Shown: one piece after another, positions 1,991 through 6,101 of the stretch
How positions within the stretch are numbered: the stretch's first letter is position 1
How the letters are laid out: every line of letters begins with the position of its first letter
From: Pseudomonadales bacterium
GTDB lineage: Bacteria; Pseudomonadota; Gammaproteobacteria; Pseudomonadales; Azotimanducaceae
DNA length: 32,222 nucleotides
Direction of reading: 5' to 3'
NCBI GenBank assembly: GCA_029248675.1
Contig: JAQWIX010000041.1
Span: 1-32,222 of the forward strand
Position numbers and translations under genes: made by a program
Notes under the pieces: model-generated
Seen by the model: the letters and a program-made list of their open reading frames with translations, nothing else
Told to the model about the DNA's origin: nothing
The model's database searches: none

Positions 1991-2458
1991 ATGGCGCGTT
2001 CTAGTGCGGCAAGACGAGAGGCTGGAATAGAGATAACACCGTTGATCGATGTGGTGTTTCTTCTGTTGCTGTTTTTCATGGTGTCGACGAATTTCGTGCA
2101 AAATAAAAGCATCTCGGTCAATTTGCCGGAGGCTCGGGAAGGCGCCGCGGTGGTATCAACCCAGCTGGAAATTGATGTTGACGCCCAAGGCCAGTATTCA
2201 CTGGGCGGCGTGTCGATGGGGGATGATTTTGTAACCTTAGTCCAAGGGTTAAACCGCCATATGCAGGACGCTCGAGCCCCAGAAGCGGCGCAGATGCCGG
2301 TGCTTATTCGAGCCGACGCGGCAGCACCGCATCAGGCGGTGGTGACCGTTCTTGACGCATGTGCCAGCGTCGGTCTGACTCGCGTGAGTCTTGGGACAAC
2401 GGGGTTGCCGGCATCCGGCACTGACGCCGCCGAAAAAAATAACTGGAGTAGTAGGTGA
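1991..2458 (+). CDS. exbD: ExbD/TolR-family biopolymer transport protein
   Basis: Partner of the ExbB-like channel: one membrane helix plus a periplasmic domain. The N-terminal TPLIDVVFLLLLFFMVST (about residues 16-33) is the ExbD/TolR signature, and D20 matches the conserved proton-carrying aspartate. Residues 40-140 form the periplasmic domain. The length, 155 residues, is normal. The start ATG 1991 is fixed because an in-frame TAA lies at 1985-1987; the ribosome site is weak. A gap of 111 bases separates it from exbB, whereas these genes usually touch. Its TGA overlaps the GTG of the next gene (GTGA at 2455-2458), so translation of the MsbA-LpxK protein is likely coupled to it. Confidence 0.88.
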   Translation: MARSSAARREAGIEITPLIDVVFLLLLFFMVSTNFVQNKSISVNLPEAREGAAVVSTQLEIDVDAQGQYSLGGVSMGDDFVTLVQGLNRHMQDARAPEAAQMPVLIRADAAAPHQAVVTVLDACASVGLTRVSLGTTGLPASGTDAAEKNNWSSR

Positions 2459-5361
2459 CAGGTATTTCGAAGGACAAGTCGGACTGGATTATATATCGGC
2501 GTCTTCTGTCTTACGTGGGCCGTTATTGGGTGCTGTTGATCTGCGCCTTTATCGGTTTTGCGCTGGCTGCTGGCGCTGAAGCATATTTTGTCACGTTGTT
2601 TGGAAGTCTTATCGATGGTTGGGAGGATGCTCAGGTAAGGGCTGCCGCGACGATTCCTATCTTGATGGGTATTGTGGCTATCTCCAGAGCCCTCGGCGCC
2701 ATAGCCGGAGAAGCGGCGATGTCCCGGGTTTCCTTTGGCGTCGTTTATGATCTGCGTGAAGAGCTTTTCGGGCACATCCTTAAATCGCCCAGTCGTTACT
2801 TTGATGGCGCTTCCCAAGGTCATATCGTTTCGCAAATCACCTTTACCGTGACCCAATTGCGTGACACCGGCACCGACGCCTTGAGGGCGTTGATCAAGGA
2901 TGGTTTGAAGGTCATCGCTTACCTAGTCTTTTTGTTGTTGATTGACTGGCGTCTGACCATGCTTTTTATCGCCATGGCACCCCTGCTGGGCCTGATTGTA
3001 GTGTTTGCCAGCAACCGGTTTCGGCGAATCAGTCGGCGTATCCAGCATTCAATGGGAGATGTTACTCATGTGGTTTCCGAAGTGACCAACGGGTATCGAG
3101 AGGTCAAAATTTTTGGTGGGCAAAATCAAGAGGAAGAGCGTTTTCTCGCGGCCAGCAAGGTGAATCGTCAGCAAAATATGAAGATGGTGATTACCAAGGT
3201 ACTCAGTTCCCAGACCAACGAATCGATTATTGTGTTGGCTCTTTGCGGGCTGATTGTGGTGCTGTATAGCCCGGAATTTGGGGTGCAGTTGTCCAGCGGT
3301 AAAGCGGTTGAGTTTTTGGTATTGGCTGGCATGTTAGGTCGACCGATACGCAACCTTTCTGAAGTTAATGCCAAGCTACAGCGTGGGTTTGCGGCGGCTG
3401 AAGATATCTTCGCTCAATTAGACTCTGGGATAGAGGCAAACCTAGGTACATACACCCTTGAGCGTGCTCAGGGCGAGGTGACGGTGCGAAACGTGAGTTT
3501 TCGTTACGCCGATGATGGCCCCGATGTGCTTAAGGATATCGAACTGAGCATTGCTCCGGCTCAAACCGTGGCCTTGGTCGGGCGCTCTGGTAGTGGTAAG
3601 TCGACTTTGGCCAGTCTCTTACCTCGATTCTATGAGGTTGAGCACGGATCCATCCTGTTAGACGGGCAAGACATTCAGAGTTTTGAGTTGACCAATCTGC
3701 GACGGCATATTTCCTTCGTCAGTCAGCAAGTGACCCTGTTTAATGACACGTTGCGCAACAACATTGCATATGGCGATATGGCTGGGGCGTCCGATGAACA
3801 AATCAACGAGGCACTGCGCCGCTCCTATGCCGATGAATTTGTCAGCAAGATGCCTGATGGTCTTGAGACCTTGATCGGCGATGATGGCGTGCTGTTATCC
3901 GGCGGGCAGCGCCAACGCATAGCCATAGCCCGAGCCCTGTTGAAGGATTCGCCGGTTTTAATCATGGACGAAGCAACGTCGGCACTGGACAACGAATCGG
4001 AGAAAGCGATTCAGGGGGCTCTCGAAGAGGTTATGCAGGGGCGGACAACCCTGGTGATCGCTCATCGACTGTCTACGGTGGAATCGGCGGACGTTATCGT
4101 TGTCATGGATCAAGGAAAAATTGTCGAGAAAGGATCCCATCAGGTTTTGTTGGCCAAGGGAGGCCTTTACTCAGACCTTTATGGCGCCCAATTTCAAGAT
4201 GAAGAAGTCGAATCCCAAGTACCGGTATCCGGGTCATTGCGGCCTACCGGTGAAACTTCTAGGCAAGGGTCTTTGCTGGGTCAGTCAGCCAACGCCATTA
4301 CTCGGGCATGGTATAACGATGGCTTTTGGGTGAAATGTCTGCTGCCGCTTTCGTGGTTATACGGTTGGATCAGTGGGCGCAGGGCCACTCGGCAAAGGCT
4401 TAAACTGAGGGACGAAAGCTCTGCTGATAAGACGGAGTTGCCGGTTCTAGTGGTCGGTAATATTACGGTTGGTGGCACGGGTAAAACACCGTTGGTACTG
4501 GCTCTGGTGGAACTGCTGTCGGCTCAGGGTTATTCACCGGGGGTGGTTTCCCGTGGTTACAAGGGCAAGCTCAGCCGTCAGGGTGCTTTGATTCCTGCGG
4601 GGGCCTCTGCAAGCGTCTATTCGGATGAAGGCGTGATGCTTAAACAAAAGCTTCAGTGTCCAGTGGCCATAGCCGCTGAGCGCAACAGTGGGATAGCCCT
4701 TCTTAAACAAGCCGGCTGTGACTTGGTGATCGCTGATGACGGTCTTCAGCATTACGCGATGGCGCGTGATGTTGAGATAGCCGTAGTGGATGCGGCCCGG
4801 GGCGTTGGCAACGGCTTGTTGCTGCCTGCAGGGCCACTGCGTGAGCCGGTAGAGCGGTTGTCTACAGTGGATTTGGTAATCAGCCACGGTGGCGCTTCTG
4901 GCTTGGTGCCTCATGAGTACACAATGCAAACTGTACCGCTGGCATTCAAACGCCTAAGTGACGGCACCCAAACCCCGATAAGTGAATTTGCCGAGCGCTA
5001 TCCTTGGGTCCACGCCCTATGCGGAATTGGTAACCCCAGCCGGTTTTTGCGATCACTGACTGACCTTGGTATCTCCGTGGAGCCTCACTTGTATCCAGAT
5101 CATCACGGTTATACCGGCGACGAACTGGACTTCGCCGGTGGGCACCCGATTGTTTGCACGGAAAAAGATGCGATGAAGCTGGCTGCCTTAGATGTGGATC
5201 TGAGTTTTGTTTGGGCGTTGGAGATCTCGCTTGATCTGGATCCAAACTTCACGACACGGCTGTTTCAATTGATGACGGATCGGGGCATCCGCCCTAGCGG
5301 CGAGAAACAATTGGCAGAAAGTTCGATCGCCAAAGATCAAAACAAAACACAGGAAGGTTGA
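2455..5361 (+). CDS. msbA-lpxK: MsbA-LpxK fusion: lipid A flippase joined to lipid A 4'-kinase
   Basis: A single 968-codon frame covers two enzymes that are normally separate. Residues 1-583 are MsbA, the inner-membrane ABC half-transporter that flips lipid A-core: membrane domain to about 320, Walker A GRSGSGKST 376-384, signature LSGGQ 481-485, Walker B D505/E506, H-loop H537. Residues 618-968 are LpxK, which phosphorylates the 4' position of the lipid A precursor: membrane-anchoring helix FWVKCLLPLSWLYGWISG 624-641, P-loop GGTGKT 673-678, and DDGLQHY 761-767. About 33 polar residues (585-617) link them, with no stop and no ATG; in-frame TTG codons at 4237 and 4273 and a GTG near 4330 have no convincing ribosome site. 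Both catalytic sets look intact. The start is GTG 2455 after GGAG at 2445-2448, overlapping the exbD stop by 4 bases. E. coli has msbA and lpxK adjacent in this order, so loss of the msbA stop is a simple origin. Confidence 0.92.
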   Translation: MTGISKDKSDWIIYRRLLSYVGRYWVLLICAFIGFALAAGAEAYFVTLFGSLIDGWEDAQVRAAATIPILMGIVAISRALGAIAGEAAMSRVSFGVVYDLREELFGHILKSPSRYFDGASQGHIVSQITFTVTQLRDTGTDALRALIKDGLKVIAYLVFLLLIDWRLTMLFIAMAPLLGLIVVFASNRFRRISRRIQHSMGDVTHVVSEVTNGYREVKIFGGQNQEEERFLAASKVNRQQNMKMVITKVLSSQTNESIIVLALCGLIVVLYSPEFGVQLSSGKAVEFLVLAGMLGRPIRNLSEVNAKLQRGFAAAEDIFAQLDSGIEANLGTYTLERAQGEVTVRNVSFRYADDGPDVLKDIELSIAPAQTVALVGRSGSGKSTLASLLPRFYEVEHGSILLDGQDIQSFELTNLRRHISFVSQQVTLFNDTLRNNIAYGDMAGASDEQINEALRRSYADEFVSKMPDGLETLIGDDGVLLSGGQRQRIAIARALLKDSPVLIMDEATSALDNESEKAIQGALEEVMQGRTTLVIAHRLSTVESADVIVVMDQGKIVEKGSHQVLLAKGGLYSDLYGAQFQDEEVESQVPVSGSLRPTGETSRQGSLLGQSANAITRAWYNDGFWVKCLLPLSWLYGWISGRRATRQRLKLRDESSADKTELPVLVVGNITVGGTGKTPLVLALVELLSAQGYSPGVVSRGYKGKLSRQGALIPAGASASVYSDEGVMLKQKLQCPVAIAAERNSGIALLKQAGCDLVIADDGLQHYAMARDVEIAVVDAARGVGNGLLLPAGPLREPVERLSTVDLVISHGGASGLVPHEYTMQTVPLAFKRLSDGTQTPISEFAERYPWVHALCGIGNPSRFLRSLTDLGISVEPHLYPDHHGYTGDELDFAGGHPIVCTEKDAMKLAALDVDLSFVWALEISLDLDPNFTTRLFQLMTDRGIRPSGEKQLAESSIAKDQNKTQEG

Positions 5362-6101
5362 TGGCAATTCACGTCGTTATACCGGCTCGCTACGAATCAA
5401 CGCGTCTTCCAGGAAAACCGTTAGCGGACATTGCAGGACAGCCCATGATAGTGCGTGTGGCGGCTCAGGCAGCAAAGTCGAATGCCGATGATGTCGTGGT
5501 TGCCGTAGACGACGCTCGAGTTGCGGAAGCAGTTCAAGCCGCTGGCTGGGACGCGCAGATGACTCGATCCGATCATCAGTCTGGTTCTGATCGCGTTATG
5601 GAAGTTGCCCAGGAGCGTGGTTGGGTCAGTGACGATATCGTTATTAATTTGCAAGGAGACGAACCCCTCGCTCCCCCAGAGGTCATCAATCAATTGATTC
5701 AGGGAATGGTCGACAGGCCAGAAATCCCCATGGCAACCCTGTCCGAAGCGCTGGAGCAGGCAAAAGACTTCTTTGATCCAAATGTGGTTAAGGTTCTGGC
5801 CAACGATGAGGGTCTGGCATTGATGTTTTCAAGAGCGCCGCTACCTTTCCCAAGGGATAATCCATTGACTATGCCTGATGGAGCAGCTCGCCATGTTGGA
5901 ATGTATGGGTTTCGGGTTCAGGCTCTGGGCGAGTTCGTTCAGCTGGGAGAATCTCGTCTTGAGAGCATCGAACGGCTGGAGCAGCTTAGGTGGTTGCAGG
6001 CAGGTAAGAGTTTACTGGTGTTGTCGGCGATAAAACCGGTGCCCGGTGGCGTGGATACGCCAGCAGATCTGGCAAGAATTCAGGCGCTTTTCAGCGCCTG
6101 A
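5361..6101 (+). CDS. kdsB: 3-deoxy-manno-octulosonate cytidylyltransferase (CMP-Kdo synthetase)
   Basis: Activates Kdo with CTP to give CMP-Kdo, the donor used by WaaA on lipid A precursor in the cytoplasm. The 246-residue protein matches the usual length. The N-terminal VIPARYESTRLPGKPL (residues 5-20) is the nucleotide-binding signature, LQGDEP near residue 98 carries the metal aspartate, and HVGMYGFR near residue 181 is also typical. I chose ATG 5361 over the TTG one codon upstream because AGGAAGG at 5351-5357 would sit directly against the TTG. The start overlaps the lpxK TGA by one base (TGATG), so the genes are in one operon and probably coupled. The small Trm112-like gene (ycaR) that often sits between lpxK and kdsB is missing here. 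Confidence 0.95.
   Translation: MAIHVVIPARYESTRLPGKPLADIAGQPMIVRVAAQAAKSNADDVVVAVDDARVAEAVQAAGWDAQMTRSDHQSGSDRVMEVAQERGWVSDDIVINLQGDEPLAPPEVINQLIQGMVDRPEIPMATLSEALEQAKDFFDPNVVKVLANDEGLALMFSRAPLPFPRDNPLTMPDGAARHVGMYGFRVQALGEFVQLGESRLESIERLEQLRWLQAGKSLLVLSAIKPVPGGVDTPADLARIQALFSA

Follow-up and report, generated by a model that had tools for sequence, protein, structure and literature searches.

In Escherichia coli, the flippase MsbA and the kinase LpxK are separate and essential proteins of lipid A biogenesis. Are they one molecule in a member of the Azotimanducaceae, and, if so, does the joining reflect an artifact, an accident of descent, or a working partnership? The question is raised by positions 2455 to 5361 (+) of a 32,222-nucleotide stretch of DNA from Pseudomonadales bacterium (assembly GCA_029248675.1, contig JAQWIX010000041.1), the whole of which is referred to here as the window. 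These positions form a single 968-codon frame with a GTG start, a TGA stop, and zero internal stops; the start overlaps the stop of an exbD-like gene in the sequence GTGA. A preliminary description of the window had read the frame as an uninterrupted fusion of MsbA and LpxK, and the 968 codons without a stop, together with two full-length family matches, bear this out. The MsbA–LpxK fusion is confirmed as real, and almost every genome of the window's family that has LpxK carries the two proteins as a single molecule, as do several other lineages.

The MsbA half, comprising the transmembrane domain and the ATP-binding cassette (ABC) ATPase, occupies 2470 to 4194 (+; residues 6–580) and is matched by TIGR02203, PF00664, PF00005, and E. 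coli MsbA. The NCBIfam profile TIGR02203 (MsbA) aligns over its full length (1–572 of 572) with residues 13 to 582 at 679 bits, against a curated cut-off of 602, and BLASTP places residues 5 to 580 of the 582-residue E. coli MsbA on residues 6 to 580 of the fusion with 43% identity. Among solved structures, the best 60 of 293 matching sequences are led by 9bd6, an ATP-dependent lipid A-core flippase that covers residues 10 to 584 (E 2.3e-166). The ATPase motifs are intact, with Walker A GRSGSGKS at 3580 to 3603 (+; residues 376–383), LSGGQ at residues 481 to 485, DEATS at residues 505 to 509, and the H-loop histidine at residue 537, so that this half is indeed the complete exporter it was taken to be. 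Like E. coli MsbA, it keeps the ABC motifs and comes directly before LpxK; unlike E. coli MsbA, which ends two residues past the alignment, the window protein continues into a C-terminal linker and a kinase.

The LpxK half lies at 4297 to 5277 (+; residues 615–941), opens with an N-terminal helix region, and is matched by PF02606 (residues 627–938, 305 bits, cut-off 27), TIGR00682 (residues 632–918, 229 bits, cut-off 92), and E. coli LpxK, of whose 328 residues 2 to 322 align with residues 615 to 941 at 37% (BLASTP). The P-loop GGTGKT is found at 4471 to 4488 (+; residues 673–678), and the Walker B–like DDGLQH at 4735 to 4752 (+; residues 761–766). The catalytic K51, T52, D99, E100, D138, D139, and H261 of Aquifex aeolicus LpxK whose roles are described in a review (PMC6286764), presumably correspond to window residues 677, 678, 724, 725, 761, 762, and 883, the numbering being matched by motif rather than by alignment with the A. 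aeolicus protein. The P-loop, the Walker B motif, and the D99/E100 and H261 equivalents are thus kept as in the E. coli and Aquifex 4'-kinases, whereas the N terminus of the window's LpxK is tethered to the MsbA ATPase domain instead of being free.

Between the halves, positions 4195 to 4296 (+; residues 581–614) align with neither E. coli MsbA nor E. coli LpxK. By the measure applied across the family, this linker is 33 residues long, the length originally proposed. The LpxK half was likewise complete and carried its P-loop as described, but the "membrane helix" assigned to it is only weakly hydrophobic: the N-terminal helix region aligns with E. coli LpxK, and the best 19-residue Kyte–Doolittle mean in the stretch examined is 0.89, which is low for a membrane span. 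A review (PMC6286764) describes this helix of LpxK as amphipathic, located on the face of the substrate and lipid site, and responsible for membrane association; according to the same review, MsbA functions as a dimer whose ATPase domains face the cytosol. Because the ATPase domain of MsbA is cytosolic, the N terminus of the fused LpxK would be cytosolic as well, which fits a monotopic amphipathic helix better than a membrane span. An amphipathic helix, in turn, suits a cytosolic tether extending from the MsbA ATPase domain.

The spread of the fusion was determined with a PF02606 search of 146 genomes, the window's own and its relatives. The window's family accounts for 91 of these (G000–G090), of which 81 have an LpxK match; of the 10 LpxK-less genomes, six are near complete and four are 58 to 70% complete. 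We counted a gene as fused when both domains mapped to one frame; in several of these the contig stops partway through LpxK or MsbA. The fusion was found in 78/81 LpxK-bearing family genomes and in 31 of the 33 family genera with an LpxK match, 69 genomes having been mapped first and nine more afterward. The preliminary description would have been refuted had close relatives all had two separate genes; the reverse holds. An error of sequencing or assembly that joined two genes might be suspected in a genome of 192 contigs; it is ruled out, as is chance, to the point of being virtually inconceivable, by the recurrence of the same fusion with diverged sequences in these 78 genomes, two of which (G075 and G077) are assembled as a single contig. 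Of the 55 order members from other families, 53 have an LpxK match, in frames of at most 476 residues. No fusion was seen among these 53, of which 18 were mapped and two, G092 and G134, are fragments that leave their state undecided. The family forms one clade in quick trees, with supports of 89 and 94, not starred.

Only three LpxK-bearing family genomes are exceptions. In G069 (L079), msbA and lpxK occupy the usual position and gene order but are read in separate frames, and, as the genome sits within the fused family in trees, this in-place split is best read as a later re-split of the fusion. The locus of G073 (L078) is decayed, with a C-terminal MsbA piece alone (window residues 519–583, tblastn) preceding LpxK, which has a frame of its own, and G029 ends at a contig edge. 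Apart from this locus, G073 has another MsbA-like exporter (L215), below the curated cut-off, on a different contig.

Does the fused gene carry both functions in its own cell? In the source genome (G000; 2.55 Mb, 192 contigs, 91.7% complete), the fused gene is the one LpxK match and also the one MsbA match at E ≤ 1e-140. Provided that the assembly misses nothing, both steps must therefore depend on the fusion. LpxC and LpxB matches are present, which places the lipid A pathway in this genome. No LptD match was found in the assembly; this is likely an assembly gap, because LptD is present in five of the six near-complete LpxK-less family genomes and in G069 and G073. The LpxC matches comprise one complete frame and two further partial frames (contigs C124, C93, and C88), for which a second copy, a strain mixture, and contamination are possible explanations.

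Catalytic columns were read from alignments of 68 family fusions, 10 other fusions, and 30 unfused pairs; counts by regular-expression motifs were abandoned because the patterns were too strict and undercounted. In the MsbA half, the Walker A lysine (Lys382 in the window), the signature serine, the Walker B aspartate and glutamate, and the H-loop histidine are each present in 68/68 family fusions, and the exceptions consist of arginine for the first signature glycine in two members and glutamate for the Q-loop glutamine in one. In the LpxK half, the K51 equivalent (Lys677) is found in 68/68, D99 in 65/68 (glutamate in three), D138 (D761) in 67/68, D139 (D762) in 68/68, and H261 in 67/68; His766 of the DDGLQH motif is kept in 65/68, and the T52 position holds threonine in 54 and serine in 14. 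The same catalytic residues are present in the 30 unfused pairs and the 10 other fusions. One member, G042 (L146), has an LpxK half without the D138 and H261 equivalents and retains the MsbA ATPase residues; its kinase domain is possibly inactive.

The ratio of nonsynonymous to synonymous substitution (omega) was estimated in close pairs, 7 of 10 of which had usable synonymous divergence (dS). Omega was 0.017 to 0.088 for MsbA and 0.046 to 0.122 for LpxK, compared with 0.14 to 0.89 for the linker in seven pairs; these values are rough, since several dS exceed 1 and silent sites are saturated in 3 of the 10 pairs. Across the family, the linker is polar, rich in Ala, Ser, and Pro, and variable in sequence, with a median length of 35 residues (18–74). 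Evolution has preserved the two halves and, although the linker between them changes freely, the reading frame that joins them.

An Ala/Ser/Pro-rich linker would also be compatible with a chain that is cut after synthesis, or with LpxK being made additionally from an internal start, in which case the cell would work with separate enzymes. The window does offer in-frame TTG codons at residues 595 and 607 and a GTG at 626, but its linker has no in-frame ATG, and no such start is conserved: among 69 fusions, an in-frame ATG near the junction occurs in 22 and an ATG or GTG in 51, whereas an ATG or GTG with a Shine–Dalgarno sequence occurs in nine by a loose 4-mer and in five by a 5-mer. As far as the codons tell, an internal LpxK start is not a conserved feature, and we regard cleavage or internal initiation as improbable.

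How often has the joining occurred? A class-wide survey covered 275 genomes, 263 of them with LpxK including the window's, and every listed frame of at least 482 residues outside the family, along with nine family genomes judged so far by length, was mapped for MsbA. Besides the window, 8/262 genomes are fused (G204, G223, G309, G313, G187, G173, G406, and G391), and some of the remaining genomes are represented by contig-edge fragments. A long stop-to-stop frame proved an unsafe proxy for fusion, as MsbA may lie in another frame or not in the examined stretch; long frames of this kind include those of G395 (950 residues), G364 (726), G385 (700), G281 (692), G311 (687), and others. The weakest case of fusion is G204, which has N letters in the linker and the P-loop. 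Small genomes (0.9–1.3 Mb) account for three of these eight fusions, those of G173, G309, and G406. Within the four-genome family of G223, G223, G417, and G418 are fused and G340 is unfused; similarly, the unfused G288 is the sister and family mate of the fused G391 (support 100). Both G340 and G288 could be splits instead of never having been fused.

Trees were built by quick searches on joined MsbA and LpxK domain alignments with the linker excluded. They require four changes of state on 45 rows and seven on 57 rows, one of them at G069; such counts do not separate gain from loss, and a better tree than the quick one on 57 rows exists. We read the changes as gains because unfused genomes far outnumber fused ones. 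The approximately unbiased (AU) test, applied to groups that were named after the first tree was seen, rejects one clade for all fusions (p 1.9e-82), one clade for the fusions of the window's family and family f124 (p 5.8e-39), and one clade for f124, G391, and G313 (p 6.1e-46), and is borderline for f124 with G204 (p 0.046). Joining the window's family with G309, G173, and G406 is not rejected (p 0.86; 0.856) and scores 21.7 log-likelihood units above the free quick tree. Separate origins for these three genomes were dropped because the joined tree scores higher than the free one; judging from these alignments, they may share an origin with the window's family or have received the fusion by transfer. 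Overall, there is good support for three origins of the fusion (in the window's family, f124, and G391), and the number could be as high as about six.

What might the joining achieve? In the same review (PMC6286764), LpxK is reported to have no activity on Kdo (3-deoxy-D-manno-oct-2-ulosonic acid)-bearing substrates, E. coli WaaA to prefer 4'-phosphorylated acceptors, and MsbA to be less active on earlier intermediates. Because of the first two properties, the known pathway does not run straight from the kinase reaction to the flippase reaction, and because of the first and third, what the LpxK half makes is not what the MsbA half normally transports. Direct hand-over between the halves is unlikely, since Kdo and late acyl transfer come between; the initial caution on this point agrees with the reported preferences of LpxK and WaaA. 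Direct channelling from kinase to flippase would call for a shortened pathway with few intervening steps, and the physical link of an early enzyme with the exporter and the small size of the three nonfamily genomes could be taken to hint at one. Kdo transfer and late acylation intervene in E. coli, however, and MsbA is reported to work less well on what precedes them; moreover, kdsB is the next gene after the fusion, so CMP-Kdo is probably made. We find channelling highly improbable.

The reading we favor, and hold to be probable, is a genuine bifunctional MsbA–LpxK protein that may serve dosage and colocalization instead of hand-over. By analogy with its family, the MsbA half would dimerize in the inner membrane and flip core-lipid A. 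Each subunit would carry an LpxK kinase on a cytosolic tether of roughly 33 residues, giving two kinases per dimer, and the amphipathic N-terminal helix of each kinase would rest on the same inner leaflet, where the lipid A disaccharide would be phosphorylated at the 4' position. The gain, which is less certain, could be a fixed 1:1 dosage and the placing of an early step at the membrane beside the pump through which lipid A leaves. In E. coli, msbA and lpxK are coexpressed from the ycaI-msbA-lpxK-ycaQ operon (PMC10328246) as two proteins, whereas one chain forces a 1:1 ratio if it stays whole. Such a ratio would be a change, because an E. coli model estimates LpxK at about twice MsbA (432 versus 206 copies; PMC4412817). 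The interpretation given in the preliminary description is, overall, partly supported.

Several observations weigh against this bifunctional reading. Nothing in the variable linker points to a specific docking surface, the split genes of G069 imply that joining is not strictly required, and the frequency of ATG or GTG codons near the junction leaves room for a second LpxK product. In addition, the window's own two pairs are saturated at silent sites, and omega is therefore not available for the window itself. A tolerated accident, in which the gene boundary was lost and the fusion, being as good as the separate proteins, was kept by descent without any gain, is a serious rival, if on balance not the probable one. 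The step to fusion would be short, given that msbA directly precedes and overlaps lpxK by four bases (ATGA) in E. coli and that an MsbA frame directly precedes lpxK in 11 of the 18 mapped order members outside the family. The fast-evolving linker of variable length and the in-place split in G069 are also what an accident would lead one to expect. Against it stand the retention of the fusion across nearly all LpxK-bearing family genomes and genera and its occurrence in several lineages, for which the AU tests rejected a single clade.

More tentatively, the fusion may be a repeatedly selected device, in which a functional or regulatory membrane partnership of MsbA and LpxK, loose elsewhere, was made covalent several times independently. 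Conceivably, LpxK level or activity would then be tuned to export, so that fewer lipid A intermediates accumulate. A second control point of the lipid A pathway has been proposed at LpxK (PMC6286764), and LpxK depletion in Acinetobacter baumannii has been linked to a toxic accumulation of intermediates (PMC5555675). The fusion amounts to Rosetta-stone evidence linking this proposed control point with the lipid A exit pump, a link that it opens to direct testing.

Bacterial metabolic gene fusions that join genes of one pathway have been catalogued, with rationales including bottlenecks and the avoidance of toxicity (PMC4921024). Neither LpxK nor MsbA occurs in the text of that catalogue, whose main text also lacks the terms "lipid A," "LPS," and "lipopolysaccharide," the supplements lying outside the search. 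A wider search, which did not extend to supplements or to most subscription journals, yielded no paper on an MsbA–LpxK fusion among those listed; a paper with an LpxK–green fluorescent protein construct and the "msbA-lpxK" in PMC10328246, an operon name, are not reports of one. A search of the same literature for papers on LpxK structure also came up empty. The parts are known, while these searches turned up no published account of their joining, of how nearly fixed it is in a family, or of its recurrence; the architecture may be listed in protein databases. For annotation, the fusion means that pipelines naming one product per gene may overlook one half.

The surrounding genes are consistent with an origin by joining of neighbors in the order exbB-exbD-msbA-lpxK-kdsB. 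Upstream of the fusion lie an exbB/tolQ-like gene at 1277 to 1879 (+; PF01618), likely in the same operon as the fusion, and the exbD/tolR-like gene at 1991 to 2458 (+; PF02472), whose stop overlaps the fusion start. Downstream, kdsB occupies 5361 to 6101 (+; PF02348, NF003952), and its ATG overlaps the fusion stop (TGATG). Fused and unfused relatives keep one gene order, with a kdsB match in 24 and an exbB-like match in 20 of the 26 loci examined. That msbA and lpxK are neighbors in this order in E. coli, as first described, applies likewise to many relatives.

Some family genomes appear to dispense with the pathway altogether. LpxK, LpxC, and LpxB matches are absent from six genomes of four genera that are 91 to 100% complete (G049, G080, G052, G083, G064, and G074). 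At E ≤ 1e-140, MsbA is matched in G080 alone, by a sequence that falls short of the curated cut-off, and in none of the other five. BamA is present in 6/6 and LptD in 5/6 (not G064), so these genomes look as if they had lost lipid A synthesis and kept the outer membrane and the lipopolysaccharide (LPS) port; a literature search on such a loss with a retained outer membrane found nothing apt. In other families of the order, LpxK, LpxC, and LpxB are likewise missing from G098, in which LptD and BamA are present, and G106 has a complete LpxC, a partial LpxB, and no LpxK match, which reflects a gap or a loss.

Elsewhere in the window, between 13361 and 23128, a Pfam scan of part of the frames identified Maf, YceD, FA_synthesis (plsX-like), a fabD-like acyl transferase, ketoacyl synthase, YceG, thymidylate kinase, and TatD, an ordinary-looking cluster.

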